The position numbers were made by a program, and so were the translations under genes. 64,000 nucleotides of DNA from Aggregicoccus sp. 17bor-14 (GTDB lineage Bacteria; Myxococcota; Myxococcia; Myxococcales; Myxococcaceae), in the NCBI RefSeq assembly GCF_009659535.1, contig NZ_VJZZ01000012.1:1-64000 (forward strand), written 5' to 3'. Below are positions 14,148 through 56,686 of the stretch, one piece after another. Each line of letters opens with the position of its first letter. Position 1 is the stretch's first letter. A model generated the notes under the pieces. It was not told the DNA's origin and did not search any database. It saw only the letters and a program-made list of their open reading frames with translations.

Positions 14148-14924
14148 GTGGGGCAGTCGAGCAGCGGGCAGGGCACGGGAGCTTCCGCGCGGCGCGCGAA
14201 GGCGCTGCAGCTGCCCCTGTTCGCGCCGCGCCCGGACGAGGGAGCCCCGCCCCCGCGCGAGCGGCTCCACGAGCCCGCGGCGGCGCTCGCCCACGCGCTC
14301 TCGGCCCACGTGGGCGTGCCGGTGCACCTCACGCTCACCGACAACCGCACGTCCCTGGTCAGCTTCGCGCGCAGCGGCGAGGAGCTGCGGCTGCGGGTGC
14401 ACCACCTGTTCGTGGATGCGCCCGGGCCCGTGGTGCGGGCGCTCGCGGAGTACGCGGGGCAGGGGCGCACCGAGGCGCGCGCGGCGCTCGAGGCCTACGT
14501 GCGCACGCACCGCCGGCAGGTGCGCGCGGAGCGGGGGCCCACGGGCCCGCGGCTGCGCACGCGCGGGCGCTGCTTCGACCTCGGGGCGCTCTTTCGCACC
14601 CTCAACGTGCAGCACTTCGCGGGGCAGGTGAGCGCGAAGGTGGGCTGGGCGCGGCGCGCCCCGCGGCGGCGGCGCAAGAGCATCCAGCTCGCCACCTACG
14701 ACGCGCGCGCCGGCGAGCTGCGCGTGCACCCCGCGCTCGATGCGCCGGACGTGCCGGCCTTCGTGGTGGAGTACTTCGTCTTCCACGCCATGCTGCACGC
14801 CCACACGGGCGCGCCCCCGGGCACGCACCCGCCCGAGCTGGCGGCGCAGGACGCGCGCTTCGCCCTGCGCGACGCGGCGCTGCGCTGGCGCGAGGCGCAC
14901 CTGCCCGCGCTGCTGCGCCGCTGA
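14148..14924 (+). CDS. SprT-like metallopeptidase fold protein with HAxxH in place of HExxH
   Basis: 258 residues. A variable basic N-terminus precedes a core containing FDLGALFRTLNVQHFAGQV, then basic WARRAPRRRRKSIQLATYD, and a helix EYFVFHAMLHAH, with H213-A214-M215-L216-H217 where SprT/WLM-like proteins have HExxH. The layout (short beta strands, LNVQHF helix, zinc helix, then a following loop) matches SprT-like domains, but the general-base Glu is Ala, so hydrolysis is doubtful although zinc binding may remain. The GTG at 14148 is selected for the GGAGG upstream; a TTG 21 nt earlier is less likely. It is followed by the gene-free stretch with repeat copy A. Confidence 0.7.
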   Translation: MGQSSSGQGTGASARRAKALQLPLFAPRPDEGAPPPRERLHEPAAALAHALSAHVGVPVHLTLTDNRTSLVSFARSGEELRLRVHHLFVDAPGPVVRALAEYAGQGRTEARAALEAYVRTHRRQVRAERGPTGPRLRTRGRCFDLGALFRTLNVQHFAGQVSAKVGWARRAPRRRRKSIQLATYDARAGELRVHPALDAPDVPAFVVEYFVFHAMLHAHTGAPPGTHPPELAAQDARFALRDAALRWREAHLPALLRR

Positions 14925-15002
14925 GCCGCTCGAGGTCCGTCGCGGTGTTGCGGCGCGAGCCGCTTGCCTGCGCCACCACCCGTAGAAGCACTGCGCGGAG
15001 GC

Positions 15003-15420
15003 GCGAGAGTGGCGCGAGGGGCACGGCCTCGAGAAGGAGAGGCCGGGAGGGAACGGGGCTTTTCCAGCTGGGTGAAGCCGTCCACGACGCGCGGGACGGC
15101 TGTCCCGAAAGGAGACGCCCCTCTCGGGCGCGAACCGTCGCGTGATGCAAAAAGGTAAAATCCTATTTTACGTTTTTGCGCGACGCGCGCCGCCGCTCCC
15201 GAGGGGGCACGCACGCAGAGTGAAGTGCGACCTCGAGCCGGAGGGCTCGCGCGTAGAACCGACGTTTCGCTCCACGCGAAGGCGTGGACCCCAGCGTGTC
15301 ACCCCTGAGCGCGGCGCACCGGCAGCGCCCCACCGCGAAGGGCCGCAGCGCTCCGTCACCCTTCCGGTCCTGACGCTCCCAAGGGCAAGCCAACGCCTCG
15401 TGCAGGAGGCAACGCGCGTG
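15003..15420 (+). repeat. Dispersed structured repeat, copy A
   Basis: About 418 bp that recurs as copy B at 56196-56686. The 5' part (15003-15283) aligns without large gaps. The 3' part (about 15285-15420) realigns after a ~73-bp length difference. Conserved hairpins are CGGCCT/AGGCCG (15024-15045), GGGAC-GGCT-GTCCC (15093-15106), the AT-rich palindrome (15147-15179) and GAGCC-GGAG-GGCTC (15235-15248). A copy-specific TCCACGC/GCGTGGA hairpin with loop GAAG sits at the length-variable point. An open frame crosses it, but 10 of 12 codon differences from copy B within 46 codons change the amino acid, arguing against coding. The stretch 14925-15002 shows nothing recognisable. Confidence 0.85.
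15147..15179. repeat. 33-bp AT-rich palindrome core of repeat copy A
   Basis: Left arm GCAAAAAGGTAAAAT, spacer CCT, right arm ATTTTACGTTTTTGC. The arms are complementary at 14 of 15 positions, with one central G-G mismatch. The identical 33 bp occurs in copy B at 56341-56373. Such an A/T block is exceptional in this genome. Both strands carry TAAAAT, so it could also serve as a -10-like or protein-binding site. Confidence 0.85.
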
Positions 15421-15723
15421 AAGTGACACCGCGGGTGGCCTCGTCGCGGTAGTCCCCGCCCGCAGCGGCGAATGGCCTGGCGCGGCCACGTCGACGCTGC
15501 CGAGTGGACACCTGTGCTTCCCAGAGGGCGTGTGTCCCTGCTGTGCGCATCGCGTCTGTCTCGGGGCCTTCCGCGAGAAAGCAGAACCCTTGCCTCGCGG
15601 GGCAATGCCCACGGGGGGCCGGGCGTGCGCGGGATGCCCGCTCGCGTCAGGGGGCTTGCCAGGGAAGCGGCGGCGCTCCAGCGTGTGCCTGCACATCGCG
15701 CACGCCCAGCCCGCCGAGGAGCC
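15421..15723 (+). other. Gene-free leader between repeat copy A and the MASE1 kinase
   Basis: About 300 bp with no supportable reading frame, no T-tract terminator and no clear -35/-10 pair. It ends in GAGGAG just before the kinase ATG. It may be a 5' untranslated region or hold an unrecognised promoter. Confidence 0.4.
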
Positions 15724-17787
15724 ATGATGGAGGACTACAGCCCCCGGGCCCCTGCGGACGCCCCGCCACCCGAGCGCGCGGGCCCGGGCGGCGCGTTCTG
15801 GGCCGTGGGCGCGGCCGCGCTCGCCGCCGCCTCCTACCTGCTCGCGCGCTACATCCACCTCGGGCCTCCGCAAGGCCCCTGGGCCTACTGGCCCATCAAC
15901 GGCCTGCTGTGCGGGTTGCTCTCGCGCAGGCCCCGCAGCGAGCGGCCGTGGATTGCGCTCACGGCCGCGACGGCGCAGGTGGTCACCATCTACCTGGTGC
16001 GCGGTAACCTGGCCGGCGGCTCCACGGTGGGAGGCGCGGCCATGGGGGCGGTGCAGGCGCTCGCGGGGGCCTGGCTGCTGCAGCGGCAGCGCAGCGCGGG
16101 CACTCCGCTCGGCAGCCTGCGCGAGCTGGCGGCGTTCGTCATCGGCGTGGTGTTCCTCGTGCCGCTCGCCCTCACGCCGATCTCGGCGCTGGGCTTCGCG
16201 TACGGCCTGGGGCTGCCCTTCTTCCAGTCCTGGTGGCCGCTCTTCGTCGGCAACTCGCTGAGCATGCTCTTCTTCGCGCCCTTCGCGATGCAGGGCTGGG
16301 GGCGCTGGCGCGAGGCGCGCGCGCTGTGGCCCGCCGGGCGCCTCGAGGTGCTGCTGTGCCAGCTGTGCATCCTGGTGCTGTCCGCGGCGAGCTTCGGGGG
16401 GCTGGGGCGCTGGCTCGAGTACCTCGCGCTGCCCTACCTGATGTTCCCGCTGCTCGCCTGGGCCGCGCTGCGCAGCGGGCCCAAGTGGACGGCGCTCGCC
16501 ATCCTCAGCGTGGCCACGGTGGGGGCGTGGTGCACCTCGCGGGGGCTGGGGCCCTTTGCGGTGCAGGATGGGGGACCCCAGGCCTCCGTGGTGGGGCTGC
16601 AGGCCTACCTCGCCTTCGTCGCCTTCACGGCGCTCCTGCTCGCGGCGCTCACCGAGCAGCACCAGCGCGCCTTCGCCGAGCTCGCGCTGCAGGGCGCCAT
16701 CCAGCGCGCCTTCTTCGAGAGCTCGGAGCCGGCCCTGGCGCTCAAGGACCTGGGCGGCCACTACCTGATGCTCAACCGGTCGATGGAGGAGCTGCTGGGC
16801 CGCCCCCGCGAGAGGCTGCTGGGCCGCCAGCTGCGCGAGGTGCTGTCGCCGGCGGACGCCGCGCTCGTCGAGGCGCACGACCAGCGGGTGCTCGAGCGCG
16901 GCCAGCCGCTCACCTTCCTCGAGTCGCTCGGCGAGGGCGCGCTGCACCGCCAGCTGCTCGTCACCCGCTTCCCGGTGAAGGACAGCGCGGGGACCATCCG
17001 CTACGTGGGGATGATCGGCCGCGACGAGACCACCGAGGTCGCGCTGGGCGAGCGCCTGCACCGCGCGCAGCGCGTGGAGCTGCTGGGGCAGCTCGCCGCG
17101 GGGCTCGCGCACGACCTCAACAACCTGCTCTCCGTGCTGGTGAACAGCGTCGCCGTGCTGCAGCGCCGCGTGGCGCTGCCGCGCGAGGACGCGGAGATCC
17201 TCCAGGACATGGCGGAGGCGGGGGAGCGGGCCGCGAGCCTCACCCGCCGGCTGATGTCCTTCGGGCGGCCGGAGGGCAGCCGCGCGCCGCTGGAGGTGGA
17301 CGAGGCGCTGCGCAGGCTCGAGCCGCTGCTGCGCGCGCTCGCCCGCGGCGGCATCGACGTGGTGGGCCGCTACGGCGCGCCGGGCGTGAGCGTGGTGGCG
17401 GACGCGAGCGAGCTCGAGCAGATCGTGCTCAACCTGGTGAGCAACGCGCGCGACGCCATCGCGGGCGAGGGGCGCATCACCGTCACCACCGAGCTCGCGC
17501 TGCGCCCGGGCGCCCCGGACTCCGGGGCCACGGACGGCGCCGTGAGCCGCTGGCTGCAGGTGCGCGTGGAGGACAACGGCGAGGGCATGGACCCGGCCAC
17601 GCTCGCGCGCCTCTTCCAGCCCTTCTTCACCACCAAGGAAGGCGCGCGCGGCACGGGGCTCGGCCTCTACACCACCGCGCTGCTGGTGCGGCAGCTGGGC
17701 GGGGAGATCCACGCGACGAGCACGCCCGGCCAGGGCAGCACCTTCGTGGTGGGGCTGCCGGTGGCCGGGCCACTGCTGGGGAGCTGA
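15724..17787 (+). CDS. MASE1-type membrane histidine kinase with PAS domain
   Basis: 687 residues. The N-terminal half (about 20-300) has eight or so hydrophobic helices with the WAYWPINGL and LPFFQSWWPLFVGNSLSML motifs typical of MASE1 sensor regions. A PAS domain follows (about 320-440, AFFESSEPALALKDLGGHYLMLNRSMEELLG), then the DHp helix with phosphoacceptor His463 in GLAHDLNNLLSVL, and a complete HATPase_c with NLVSNARDAI, DNGEGMD and GTGLGLY. It is thus a competent kinase of the NtrB-like HisKA class, without its own receiver. ATG at 15724 (an adjacent ATG at 15727 is equally usable) follows GAGGAG. The signal and cognate regulator are not encoded next to it. Confidence 0.92.
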   Translation: MMEDYSPRAPADAPPPERAGPGGAFWAVGAAALAAASYLLARYIHLGPPQGPWAYWPINGLLCGLLSRRPRSERPWIALTAATAQVVTIYLVRGNLAGGSTVGGAAMGAVQALAGAWLLQRQRSAGTPLGSLRELAAFVIGVVFLVPLALTPISALGFAYGLGLPFFQSWWPLFVGNSLSMLFFAPFAMQGWGRWREARALWPAGRLEVLLCQLCILVLSAASFGGLGRWLEYLALPYLMFPLLAWAALRSGPKWTALAILSVATVGAWCTSRGLGPFAVQDGGPQASVVGLQAYLAFVAFTALLLAALTEQHQRAFAELALQGAIQRAFFESSEPALALKDLGGHYLMLNRSMEELLGRPRERLLGRQLREVLSPADAALVEAHDQRVLERGQPLTFLESLGEGALHRQLLVTRFPVKDSAGTIRYVGMIGRDETTEVALGERLHRAQRVELLGQLAAGLAHDLNNLLSVLVNSVAVLQRRVALPREDAEILQDMAEAGERAASLTRRLMSFGRPEGSRAPLEVDEALRRLEPLLRALARGGIDVVGRYGAPGVSVVADASELEQIVLNLVSNARDAIAGEGRITVTTELALRPGAPDSGATDGAVSRWLQVRVEDNGEGMDPATLARLFQPFFTTKEGARGTGLGLYTTALLVRQLGGEIHATSTPGQGSTFVVGLPVAGPLLGS

Positions 17788-27598: not shown

Positions 27599-28609
27599 TC
27601 AGCGGGCACCGGTGTCCTCACTGCGGCGCTCAAGTTCTGATGACGGCACTATTGACACCGAAGTCCAGCAGTTCTGCTCCGATGCCTCTGTGCGTCGCAG
27701 TGGTGGATTCTTAGTCAGAACGTGCAGGAATGTAATTTCAGGCTCCAGGAGAGCTGCAAGTCCTAGTCCGAGCGCGTGTGGTTTGGGGCCCAGCGGAACA
27801 ATTACGAGGCCTGCGTCTGGACCACCGACGCCGAGCAGGTCGCGAGTAACACCGACGACCTCTGTTACCCCGCCTATCGGAAGTCTAATTAACGCCTCCG
27901 CCCGATTAATGACGCCCCTGTTGCGCCGAATCGCTTCTTCTCCAGCGCCCACATCTGCTCCCGGGTCTGCCACGAGGGCATACGACATATGAGGCTGAAA
28001 AATCTCTTCTAGCGCGCCAGCTTGAGCGCCATCGAATCCAAGGCTAAAGAGATGAAGTTGCCGACCATCTCCAGCCGACAGGCCTTCAAGGCCAGGGATG
28101 GCATAAATCGCGTCGACTTCAGCTACCTGCCACTCCTCGAGAGTTCGGGTCCCGTAGTTGTAACCGAGGACTATATCCGCTCCGACTTCGTATGCGGCAG
28201 CGACTAAGGCCCCGATGTAGAAAGGCTTGGGCATGCACGTGTAGTCAATGAAGACGCGCGGAATCCGCCCGTGAATAGTCTTGATCTTTCGCAGTTCGGC
28301 TGCGAACCATTGAAGGTAGTGTCCGTAGGCAGACGTCGAGAAGGAATGTTTGCGGTCGCGACAAAGACGAACGAGCTCTGCCTCCGTAGAGAGCCGCACG
28401 GGGTCTGCTTGAAGTGAATCCAAGCAAATAACATGGCCGCTCGCCTCGAAGACGGCGTGCAACTTCCTAGGAATCGCCGTTGCACGAGGTTCGAAGCCGG
28501 CCGCAGCGATTGCAAGATCGAACGTTTGTTCACGAAGCTCGTCTTCTTGAACGTCCCTGATTTGGACGATCGTATTACGAGCTGCGCCGACGGCCACGGG
28601 GCCGGTCAT
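27599..28609 (-). CDS. Unrecognised protein of the three-gene island
   Basis: 336 residues, no signal or membrane segment. The N-terminal half has alternating strands and helices: FDLAIAAAGFEPRA, HVICLDSLQADP, and IPRVFIDYTCMPKPFYIGAL, suggesting a Rossmann-like fold. The C-terminal half has HLFSLGFDGAQAGAL and a sharp motif GLVIVPLGPKPHALGLGLA. I do not recognise a family. Its ATG overlaps the stop of the ATPase gene (ATGA), so it is the last gene of a phosphoesterase-ATPase-this operon. In such modules the third protein is often the effector, but that is inference. G+C content and codon use are clearly lower than in the flanking genes. Confidence 0.8.
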   Translation of the reverse strand: MTGPVAVGAARNTIVQIRDVQEDELREQTFDLAIAAAGFEPRATAIPRKLHAVFEASGHVICLDSLQADPVRLSTEAELVRLCRDRKHSFSTSAYGHYLQWFAAELRKIKTIHGRIPRVFIDYTCMPKPFYIGALVAAAYEVGADIVLGYNYGTRTLEEWQVAEVDAIYAIPGLEGLSAGDGRQLHLFSLGFDGAQAGALEEIFQPHMSYALVADPGADVGAGEEAIRRNRGVINRAEALIRLPIGGVTEVVGVTRDLLGVGGPDAGLVIVPLGPKPHALGLGLAALLEPEITFLHVLTKNPPLRRTEASEQNCWTSVSIVPSSELERRSEDTGAR

Positions 28610-30363
28610 TCGTCATCTCCTGATTGAGGAGTTGCTGCCGACGACTCTAGAGAAAGCTGCAGCTGGCCGTCCGCTGGGATGGGTAGCTCTTCGTTGGAGA
28701 GTTCGTTGAAGTCGATTGGCTTACCCTTGCGAAGTACAAGCCAATACCTCGGAGCTAATCCAAACGAAAGCCAATAGTCATGATCCCCGGTCGGATATCC
28801 GCTTCGCGGATCGAACGCCCAGGGGAAGAGGACGCCATACGCAATGGCAGTCTGCACAGCGGAGGCTTCTGTGGCGGTCAGTGATGCCAAATTCAAGGAG
28901 ATCGAACACGAGTCCCTGCGCAGGCGTCTGCCGCTATGAAGGCGCTCCTCAAGCTTCGTGCCCAAGGCATCGACCCAATCCTGAATCCACCGTCCGCAGC
29001 GGGGAAGAGCCACCAATCTATCGAAGGCGCTGTCTGCAACGCTTCGGATTACGCTACTCTGCTGCTCCGGTGATATCGTCGTGGCTCCCTCGGACGCTTC
29101 ATACAGACGGTCAAGTAGCCGGAGTAGGCGTCGGGGATTGCCATCAGAGGCTGCCATTACGTCTGTCCAGCCTGCATATGCAGTGACAGAAGCATTGCCA
29201 GTTGCTGCGCGACGGAGAAGTCGCATTGCCAAAGCTGGGACGTACTGTCTAGCTGAGTCGGCGTTGATTTTTCGCTCAGGGAGGGGAGGAGCTGTTTCGG
29301 AAAGGCTTGGGATTACGTCCTCCCATGTCCTGCCTTTAAACCTCTTCTCTAGGTACGTCGTCGCCCTGTGTCGAATGGAGGTGTCGCCTAGCCATTGGAC
29401 CGGGCTCTTGGGTAGGTCCGTGGCGCCTGCGCCAGCCAATCGCGTTGCGTACAGTCTTAGTGCAAACCGCTTTCCGGCAACGGATTTGGGATCCAAGGAG
29501 AGCGCGACATACTCAAAATCCTCGCCAGGCATTACAGGATTATCTTCTGCCTGAGTCTTCAGAGTTCGATGGCCGTGCGGAAGGCATGCGCCTTTAATGG
29601 CAATTGGTCTGGAGACGTTCCGGAGCACCGTGTTGAAAAGAACCTGTTGCTCTTCACTGAGATTGTCGAGCTCGTCGAAGGCAAAAACCCAGAGCGGCGG
29701 GCGCGGCAAGAAGGCGCTTATGTCGATGTCTGAAATCAGCGAGCCGAACGGTTCGAACAATTCGCTGAGCAATAGCCCAGTCGGCAGGGTTGGAGTTTCT
29801 CCAGGAGCAAATGCTGCTCGCAATGTGACATCTCGCAGCTCCCGCTGCATTGCCTTGCAGTGCTCTATGAAGCCTTTGACTTCTACACCAGTCGGGGGCG
29901 CGACTGTAAAAAAGCGTTCCCATAGGTTCTTGACTAGACGAGCTTCAACGCTAGCGGCGCGTTCTGGGGCATCACATACGAAGTGTGCCAAGCGGCTCAA
30001 TGACTGCGCGAACTGCTGCGCAATTAAGAGGTTGAACCCCTGGATGAAGAGCACGTCTCGTTGTGCAGATGGCAGCCAGCCACGTCGTTGGTACGCTGCA
30101 ACCCACTGTTGTGCAACAGTGACATATGTCCCAACGAGCAGCTCGCCCTCAGGTGAGACAGCACCCTTCAGCGCACTGGGGGATTCCGCGATATTGCGAA
30201 GGATCGTTGATTTGCCCGACCCGCGCGGCCCTTGAAGAATTACATGTCGAGCGTCGTCGAGCTGGAACTGTGTCTCAGGGGGGCAGTAAGTTGAGATGAC
30301 TTCGTCTGGGCGCATCCGCTCGACGCGGCGAAGTCTGAACGGGTTTGGTTTTGAGTGGCGCAT
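28606..30363 (-). CDS. ORC/CDC6-like P-loop ATPase of the island
   Basis: 585 residues. Walker A GPRGSGKST with Lys51, Walker B LWVFAFDELDN with Asp230-Glu231, then an all-helical C-terminal region with SDGNPRRLLRLLDRLYE, a typical AAA lid (sensor 2-like Arg) segment. This resembles the ORC-CDC6-type AAA ATPases found next to varied effectors in prokaryotic defence loci. It begins 4 nt after the phosphoesterase stop, without a Shine-Dalgarno, suggesting translational coupling; a start 16 codons further in (MRPDEV) is possible. It probably uses ATP to sense a target and regulate its partners; the trigger is unknown. Confidence 0.82.
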   Translation of the reverse strand: MRHSKPNPFRLRRVERMRPDEVISTYCPPETQFQLDDARHVILQGPRGSGKSTILRNIAESPSALKGAVSPEGELLVGTYVTVAQQWVAAYQRRGWLPSAQRDVLFIQGFNLLIAQQFAQSLSRLAHFVCDAPERAASVEARLVKNLWERFFTVAPPTGVEVKGFIEHCKAMQRELRDVTLRAAFAPGETPTLPTGLLLSELFEPFGSLISDIDISAFLPRPPLWVFAFDELDNLSEEQQVLFNTVLRNVSRPIAIKGACLPHGHRTLKTQAEDNPVMPGEDFEYVALSLDPKSVAGKRFALRLYATRLAGAGATDLPKSPVQWLGDTSIRHRATTYLEKRFKGRTWEDVIPSLSETAPPLPERKINADSARQYVPALAMRLLRRAATGNASVTAYAGWTDVMAASDGNPRRLLRLLDRLYEASEGATTISPEQQSSVIRSVADSAFDRLVALPRCGRWIQDWVDALGTKLEERLHSGRRLRRDSCSISLNLASLTATEASAVQTAIAYGVLFPWAFDPRSGYPTGDHDYWLSFGLAPRYWLVLRKGKPIDFNELSNEELPIPADGQLQLSLESSAATPQSGDDE

Positions 30364-30367
30364 GCGT

Positions 30368-31579
30368 TTAGGGCAGCGTTGGATAGGCGACCCAGTCGTG
30401 TAGGTCACGGCTGCTCTCGCCAAGGGTTAGTCCTGCACTCCCAAGGTGCTTGCTTGCTGCATGTTTAATTTCGTCCAACGCCACTCCGCGCAAAGCTGTG
30501 AGGCCCGCCAGCGCTTGTCCAATGCGTCCGCCATGTTTTGGGAGCACAGAAACAACCCCAACGACTAGTTGATCCAGTTCTTGCGGAGTGATGATTCTTC
30601 CGAAGCGCTTGAGTGAGGGGAACTCGTCTTCTTGAGTCTTCCACGACCACGCTCCCGAGCTGCCGTAAAGCCGGATGGTTCGTATTTCGCCGTACGCAAT
30701 TCCCCCGTCCCGATTCTCAATGTTAATCAAGTGAGCGCTGCAGTGTATGTCGCCGCCGCCGCGCTCAGTGGGCACGGTTGCGAGCGACCCTGCTCCAAAT
30801 ACATGTGTCATCCAGGTCGACGAGACTGCGACATCGTAGTTTGGGCAGTGGCGGTGGCCGTGGATCACAAGATCGATTTTGTGCTTCCCAAGAAGGTCTG
30901 TCAGCGCTTGTGCGTTCGTTGCAGTTGAGTAATCACGCCATTTCGGCGGGTCCTTCAAGGGGCGCAGATGGTGGTGAAGTGCAACGATCCGATAGTCGGC
31001 GTGCGTGCTTTCGAGAATCGCTTCGAGCATCTCAAGCTGCTTCGGAGCGACATAGCCATGGTGAGGACTTGCGTCATGATCCTCCTCGACAGCGCTATTG
31101 ATTCCCGTGATTAACAGTCCAGCTTGGGGGATCAAAAGGCTGTGAACGAAGTGCGAGCTCTCGCTTGGCTTTAGTTTGTGCGCGCAGCGAGTTTCACCGT
31201 CGAGATTCTCTGTCGCCAACAGGTATGGCGCAAACCGCATCCCCCGAAATCCTGGCGCTTCGGCCCCGTCCAATTTCGAGATGTCCCAAGAAACGTCATG
31301 GTTTCCAGGAACCATGAAGGTCGGAATAGCTTCTCCTCCCCAATGCATTGACAGGCGCGACAAAAAGGCTTCGGCCTGCAGAAACTCAACTGGCGCTGCC
31401 CGCGTTGTCACGTCCCCGGTGAGCGTGATGGCGTCCGGTTTGGGCCACTTCTGGACCGTTGAGAAGAACTGCACGATCAGGGGGTCGTTGTTAATTGACT
31501 CTGGCTTGTTCGGATCTGTTGGCTTCGCCATGCAGAGGCTGCCGAACTGACAGTCAGAGATATGCAGAATGATGGGCAT
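30368..31579 (-). CDS. Calcineurin-like metallophosphoesterase of the island
   Basis: 403 residues. The five metallophosphoesterase motifs are intact: IILHISDCQFG, LTGDVTT, VPGNHDVSW, ALHHHLRP and VIHGHRHCPNYD. About 100 residues after the catalytic domain (from FPSLKRFGRIITPQELDQL) form a helical tail of unknown role. The domain could be a phosphodiesterase or nuclease. It is the first gene of the operon; the ATPase follows after 4 nt. Low G+C shared with the other two genes indicates joint acquisition. Confidence 0.85.
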   Translation of the reverse strand: MPIILHISDCQFGSLCMAKPTDPNKPESINNDPLIVQFFSTVQKWPKPDAITLTGDVTTRAAPVEFLQAEAFLSRLSMHWGGEAIPTFMVPGNHDVSWDISKLDGAEAPGFRGMRFAPYLLATENLDGETRCAHKLKPSESSHFVHSLLIPQAGLLITGINSAVEEDHDASPHHGYVAPKQLEMLEAILESTHADYRIVALHHHLRPLKDPPKWRDYSTATNAQALTDLLGKHKIDLVIHGHRHCPNYDVAVSSTWMTHVFGAGSLATVPTERGGGDIHCSAHLINIENRDGGIAYGEIRTIRLYGSSGAWSWKTQEDEFPSLKRFGRIITPQELDQLVVGVVSVLPKHGGRIGQALAGLTALRGVALDEIKHAASKHLGSAGLTLGESSRDLHDWVAYPTLP

Positions 31580-56170: not shown

Positions 56171-56195
56171 GGCGCGCCCGGGCTTCGCGAGACAC

Positions 56196-56686
56196 GCGAG
56201 AGTGGCGCGAGGGGCACGGCCTCGAGAAGGAGAGGCCGGGAGGAGACGGGGCTTCTCCGGGTGGGAGAGGCCGTCCACGCGCGCGCGGGACGGCTGTCCC
56301 GAGCGGAGACGCCCCTCCCGGGCGCGGACGGGCGCGCGATGCAAAAAGGTAAAATCCTATTTTACGTTTTTGCGCGACGCGGGCCGCCGCTCCCGAGCGG
56401 GGACACACGCAGAGTGAAGGGCGCCTTGGAGCCGGAGGGCTCGCGCGTGGAATGGACGTTTCGCTCCATACGAGGGCCCCTCGGCGGGCAGCGCGGACGA
56501 GCATGGAAAGGAGCTTCCTTCCAGGCGACGGCCGCGGAGGCGCGAGGAGGTGGACGCCCGCGTGTCACCCCTGAGCGCTGCGGAACCGGCGACGCCCCGC
56601 CGCGAAGGGCCGCCGCGCTCCGTCACCCTTCCGGTCCTGACGCCTCCACCGGCACGCCAGCGCACGCACACGAGGCGACGCGCGTG
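56196..56686 (+). repeat. Dispersed structured repeat, copy B
   Basis: About 491 bp, homologous to copy A at 15003-15420. Matching hairpins: CGGCCT/AGGCCG (56217-56238), GGGAC-GGCT-GTCCC (56287-56300), the 33-bp palindrome (56341-56373) and GAGCC-GGAG-GGCTC (56429-56442). Between about 56476 and 56550 it carries roughly 73 bp more than copy A. Both copies lie on the plus strand, downstream of a plus-strand gene and upstream of another. The gene-free stretch 56171-56899 otherwise shows nothing recognisable in 56687-56899, ahead of the CSLREA lipoprotein. Confidence 0.85.
56341..56373. repeat. 33-bp AT-rich palindrome core of repeat copy B
   Basis: Identical over all 33 bp to 15147-15179: arms GCAAAAAGGTAAAAT and ATTTTACGTTTTTGC around CCT. 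Full identity in the least GC-rich part, while flanks vary, points to direct selection on this segment. Confidence 0.85.

Follow-up and report, generated by a model that had tools for sequence, protein, structure and literature searches.

A BOX-like composite intergenic repeat in Aggregicoccus sp. 17bor-14 with a conserved AT-rich palindrome as candidate protein-binding site

Among the described families of small bacterial repeats, the BOX elements of Streptococcus pneumoniae and S. suis are intergenic sequences with two end modules and a variable number of internal modules, which are predicted to be strongly folded; in S. suis, one and the same internal module is found between different end modules (PMC3049150). 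Their copy number was reported as 125 (PMC3049150). REP sequences, which are 20-40 bp long and usually present in more than 100 copies, are marked at one end by GTAG or CGTC and, like REPINs, are linked to RAYT transposases (PMC2817692, PMC3733652). MITEs, finally, are non-autonomous derivatives of insertion sequences.

In light of these systems, we have analysed a stretch of 64,000 nucleotides from the myxobacterium Aggregicoccus sp. 17bor-14 (contig NZ_VJZZ01000012.1, positions 1 to 64,000), referred to as the window, which contains two copies of an AT-rich palindrome of 33 bp. We find that this palindrome is not free-standing, since every intact core resides inside one family of non-coding intergenic repeats of 330-510 bp, with about 25 copies in the genome. 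The family resembles BOX in its distinct end modules, in the variable number of internal modules (0, 1, 2 or 3 units among 24 copies), in its predicted strong folding and in its multicopy distribution between called genes, whereas it is much more GC-rich, less abundant (about 25 compared to 125 copies) and equipped with a long and near-invariant AT palindrome, and no related insertion sequence was found. We thus consider BOX as its closest known design, likened by architecture and not by sequence homology. With REP and REPIN, the repeat shares its palindromic, extragenic and multicopy nature. Unlike in these, its core lacks a constant tag, is embedded in a much larger element and is found in a genome without match to Y1_Tnp; GTAG is not detected at the core, and GACG, which corresponds to CGTC on the other strand, is located a few bases to its right in only 13 of 24 copies. 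Like MITEs, the copies are short, non-coding, multicopy and intergenic, but they show neither a target duplication nor an autonomous partner with common ends and, differing in this respect from both MITEs and BOX, no terminal inverted repeats. Our literature search, whose scope excluded most subscription journals, retrieved no relevant myxobacterial repeat of similar kind, and this family of composite intergenic repeats appears to be previously unrecorded.

Organization and distribution of the repeat family

The exact 33-mer, GCAAAAAGGTAAAATCCTATTTTACGTTTTTGC, is found at positions 15147-15179 of the window and in identical form at 56341-56373, compared to 0 occurrences expected by chance (100 shuffles). 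As had been noticed in a sequence-only reading of the window, the flanks of the two palindromes differ, with an identity of about 89% over 196 bp around the core and further matching blocks on either side. The first copy of the repeat, as defined by an alignment of 24 copies, occupies about 390 bp on the forward strand (14996-15385) and contains a single hairpin unit. Its head extends to the left of the core (14996-15146), where column conservation and a consensus fold delimit the stems GGCCTC..GAGGCC and GTCTC..GAGAC, and continues on its right (15180-15224) with the outer imperfect arm of an inverted repeat of about 100 nucleotides, ending in GCAGAGTGAAG. The following variable region with one unit (15225-15293, containing GCGTAGAACCGACGTTTCGCTCCACGC) connects to the tail (15294-15385), which runs from GTGTCACCCCTGAGCGC to CGTCACCCTTCCGGTCCTGACG. 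The second copy, on the same strand, encompasses 464 bp with two hairpin units (56189-56652). Between both copies, the window harbours an island on the reverse strand (27599-31579) with a GC content of about 56% compared to 73%, which looks like an acquired defence-type cluster. Of its three genes, one encodes a protein with a match to PADLOC models of the CARF domain (E 6e-25), another an ATPase of ORC-CDC6-like type (PF24389, E 3e-95) and the third a phosphoesterase of calcineurin-like type (PF00149).

We have searched the genome assembly (6.92 Mb, 38 contigs) and identified 24 exact occurrences of GTAAAATNNNATTTTAC, compared to none for the reversed control. Allowing up to three mismatches added one decayed member (C6:383878) and two matches at chance level, and a DNA search with the sequence around the core recovered the same loci. 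All 24 cores and the decayed one are part of the repeat, although the 33-mer itself, proposed to be invariant including its G-G mismatch and CCT spacer, is exact in only 11 of the 25. Five others are perfect palindromes, with C replacing the mismatched G at arm position 8, and nine carry other changes in the outer arms or the spacer, the latter altered to CCA in a single copy. The proposed invariance thus holds for the two copies of the window, whereas genome-wide the mismatch is polymorphic and the near-invariant part is confined to the inner 17 bp, GTAAAATCCTATTTTAC (15155-15171 in the first copy).

In the alignment of 24 full copies, the borders of the element were placed where conservation ends, which on the left fades approximately between GGACA and CGCGAGAG and on the right after CTGACGCCCC. 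Within these borders, a head of about 230 bp including the core is followed by zero to three hairpin units, GC-rich and each about 65 bp long, and then by a tail of about 90 bp. Recurring hairpins such as GGAACGGACGTTTCGCTCC and GGAAGGAAGCTTCATTCC make up the variable region, whose length is 10-24 bp in five copies, 70-72 bp in four, 112-150 bp in 14 and 187 bp in one. In two elements (L013 and L019), the head contains an extra GTCTCGAAAGGAGA-like hairpin that resembles a duplicate of its neighbour. Not all members are intact. In a remnant at C11:66492, most of the element is gone and the core is retained with three differences, the repeat at C6:383878 is kept with a decayed core and chimeric copies with a different core are found at C2:240.7-241.1 kb and C6:321 kb. 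Retention of the flanking repeat in absence of the 33-mer, which for other strains had been named as a refuting observation, is encountered within this genome, where it was examined, in the decayed and in the chimeric copies, and the core is therefore not indispensable to the flanking modules.

According to gene calls based on codon usage, the copies are located between genes. The first copy of the window is placed between an open reading frame without Pfam match and a MASE1-PAS histidine kinase, and the genes called upstream of the repeats are varied, including dehydrogenases, LysR regulators, peptidases and FMN reductase, which weakens their interpretation as a regulon. Clustering on contigs is weak (p 0.036 and 0.06) and markers beside the copies are spread all around the complete genomes of relatives. 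These results give no clear indication of clustering in the chromosome terminus, as it would be expected for a terminus-specific, matS-like site. In a post hoc comparison, contigs below 290 kb (C11 and smaller) contain 15 copies in 2.18 Mb and larger ones 10 copies in 4.71 Mb (p=0.004).

The repeat was found in this one species only and may thus be young. None of 95 further genomes of the family contains a core within two mismatches, and a DNA search of 145 genomes of the order, with few candidates scored per genome, returned outside of this genome only short matches with E >5e-5. Among 84,980 species genomes, we found four single matches to GTAAAATCCTATTTTACG in unrelated organisms, which are probably due to chance. 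Plasmid and phage collections contain no match; a longer pattern is matched by three viral contigs.

Sequence constraint and the presumed role of the core

The core diverges from its consensus on average by 2.8% (1.6% if the G/C position is omitted), compared to 10.7% elsewhere in the element, and the contrast is stronger for columns with A or T in the consensus, where the respective values are 2.2% and 13.9% (permutation p=5e-5). Since the changes most frequently seen in the element outside the core are A>G and T>C, an AT-rich stretch should be the first to erode under drift. The low divergence and the retention of the core in the remnant at C11:66492 argue for selection on its sequence. Pairing between the arms, in contrast, is not maintained. 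Outside of position 8, which is itself unpaired in 15 of the 25 copies, eight arm changes break a pair, three lead to a wobble pair and none is compensated, which indicates that the sequence and not the pairing is conserved. The same is found further out, where stem pairs are often broken among copies and RNA covariation analysis identifies few supporting pairs and many outer-stem breaks.

We favour the interpretation that the core of this BOX-like composite repeat is probably a dyad-symmetric protein-binding site, since its sequence is kept while its pairing is not and since it is found nowhere else in the chromosome, the latter making an ordinary host regulon unlikely. Of the four readings initially offered for the palindrome, a protein-binding site, a bidirectional promoter core, an RNA hairpin and a transposition or recombination end, the first appears best supported by this pattern of constraint. 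In the proposed mechanism, the composite repeat, consisting of the head with its core, zero to three hairpin units and the tail, would have been amplified in this genome to about 25 copies, with the core serving as two-fold-symmetric recognition site in double-stranded DNA for a protein that might either spread or maintain the element. Several observations speak against this mechanism: a binding protein or mobilising enzyme was not identified, the near-invariant CCT spacer exceeds the needs of a simple dimer site and there are copies whose core has decayed or been exchanged. As transposition or recombination end, the core would be misplaced, because it is internal to the element and because no target duplication is found, but part of this reading is preserved in that it may be a recognition site used for mobilisation. 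It also counts against the proposed mechanism that the copies contain no consistent target-site duplication and no evident terminal inverted repeats at their ends, and that the end patterns match only this repeat family above chance, leaving no insertion sequence with shared ends. A search of the genome for a reverse transcriptase (PF00078), as partner expected for a retron or group II intron, was equally negative.

Alternatively, the core could act as hairpin, either as cruciform, as single-stranded DNA hairpin that is recognized by a nuclease or transposase as in REP, or as RNA hairpin in the 3' untranslated region of the upstream gene. Its folding properties comply with such a role, as the 33-mer is predicted to form a DNA hairpin of -10.5 kcal/mol that is far more stable than its shuffled versions (z -6.5), and the 100 or so nucleotides around it fold into a stem that is longer but imperfect (z -4.6 to -4.9). 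An AT-rich centre, as present in the core, favours cruciform extrusion, in 17 of 24 copies the gene called upstream is oriented toward the repeat (one-sided binomial about 0.03, and weaker if three poor gene calls are omitted) and the analogous second palindrome described below has, in relatives, retained long complementary arms. We nevertheless consider a hairpin function unlikely, in view of the absence of any compensatory change in 25 copies, the frequently unpaired position 8 and the broken outer pairs, which also leave the RNA hairpin initially suggested for the core unsupported. Moreover, the consensus folds of the two strands hardly differ in energy (-224 and -223) and give preference to neither, and the genome contains no match to the Y1 transposase of RAYT type (PF01797). 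Searches against Rfam yielded no match at the gathering threshold and only chance matches at permissive thresholds.

Still less probable, in our view, is that the repeat was recently amplified and that its core has no function, having changed little by chance or due to a low local mutation rate. Its restriction to one species and a distance of the copies of about 11% from their consensus would be compatible with this scenario, yet the divergence is about fourfold higher outside of the core, and sixfold at A/T sites, and the core was retained in a remnant that has lost most of the element. That the palindrome would constitute a bidirectional promoter core is highly improbable. The motif TAAAAT, which is present on both strands, is similar to a -10 element, but a scan of the region 14900-15750 identified neither promoters nor terminators, with no sigma-70-like pair around the core and no conserved -35 upstream, and many copies are located between convergent genes.

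A second palindrome family with similar modules

At the C2:241 kb locus, the tail is present and the position of the core is filled by a segment bounded by inverted repeats of the sequence GTTCTGAGATGTCGGGGGTTTT. The genome contains 27 matches to GTTCTGAGATGTCGGGGGTTTT within three mismatches, mostly preceded by a CCCCTCCGGGCGCGGAGTCGCGCGC-like sequence that resembles the region to the left of the AT core. Loci of this second family include C2:160603, C5:352401-352697, C13:73376-73646 and others (L151, L154 and L157-L175). When compared to these loci, the hairpin and tail profiles of the first family obtained 16 and 19 matches at E<1, in contrast to 0 matches in 40 control regions (180 kb), and the modules are consequently shared between two or more types of core. 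The best tail-profile match has an E-value of 2.5e-16; most other tail matches are weak, which also counts against the explanation favoured above. A further 16 genomes of the family contain a close form of the second core, which extends over four genera if this one is counted and which, in those loci of relatives that were inspected, mostly consists of the palindrome CTGTTCGGAAATGTCGGG..CCCGACATTTCCGAACAG. Both families thus resemble each other in a palindrome-type core, in similar GC-rich arms and in the same hairpin units and tail, but differ in the unrelated sequence of their cores and in the occurrence of the second family in other genomes. We had considered whether the replaced core at C2:240.7 kb would be another miniature element that has inserted at this position, an explanation that was dropped as its flanks are found again at other sites of the second core and the locus is for this reason better described as a member of a second repeat family that shares modules. 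In one relative, a suspected insertion of IS30 type within the second palindrome could not be confirmed. Two loci of the second family, L151 (about 255 bases to the right of its core) and L162 (about 90 bases to the left of its core), contain AAAACCCCCGAGGTTTGTAGACAGCAGC or a close variant as possible third core type.

The shared modules could reflect either a true exchange of cores or the separate recruitment of similar hairpins. As a speculative and rather doubtful extension, the repeats might form a modular mobile system with the core as exchangeable recognition cassette, in which similar hairpin and tail parts would be combined with lineage-specific palindromes, each of them served by its own enzyme that would be neither a RAYT, nor a reverse transcriptase, nor the transposase of an insertion sequence with common ends. 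As modules are shared with a second palindrome family, core exchange can be tested by a comparison of strains. For most repeats without RAYT, it is an open question which protein brings about their spread or maintenance. The AT-rich core has been kept almost unchanged against a drift toward GC and, if it were a recognition site, it would offer a direct bait for such a protein.
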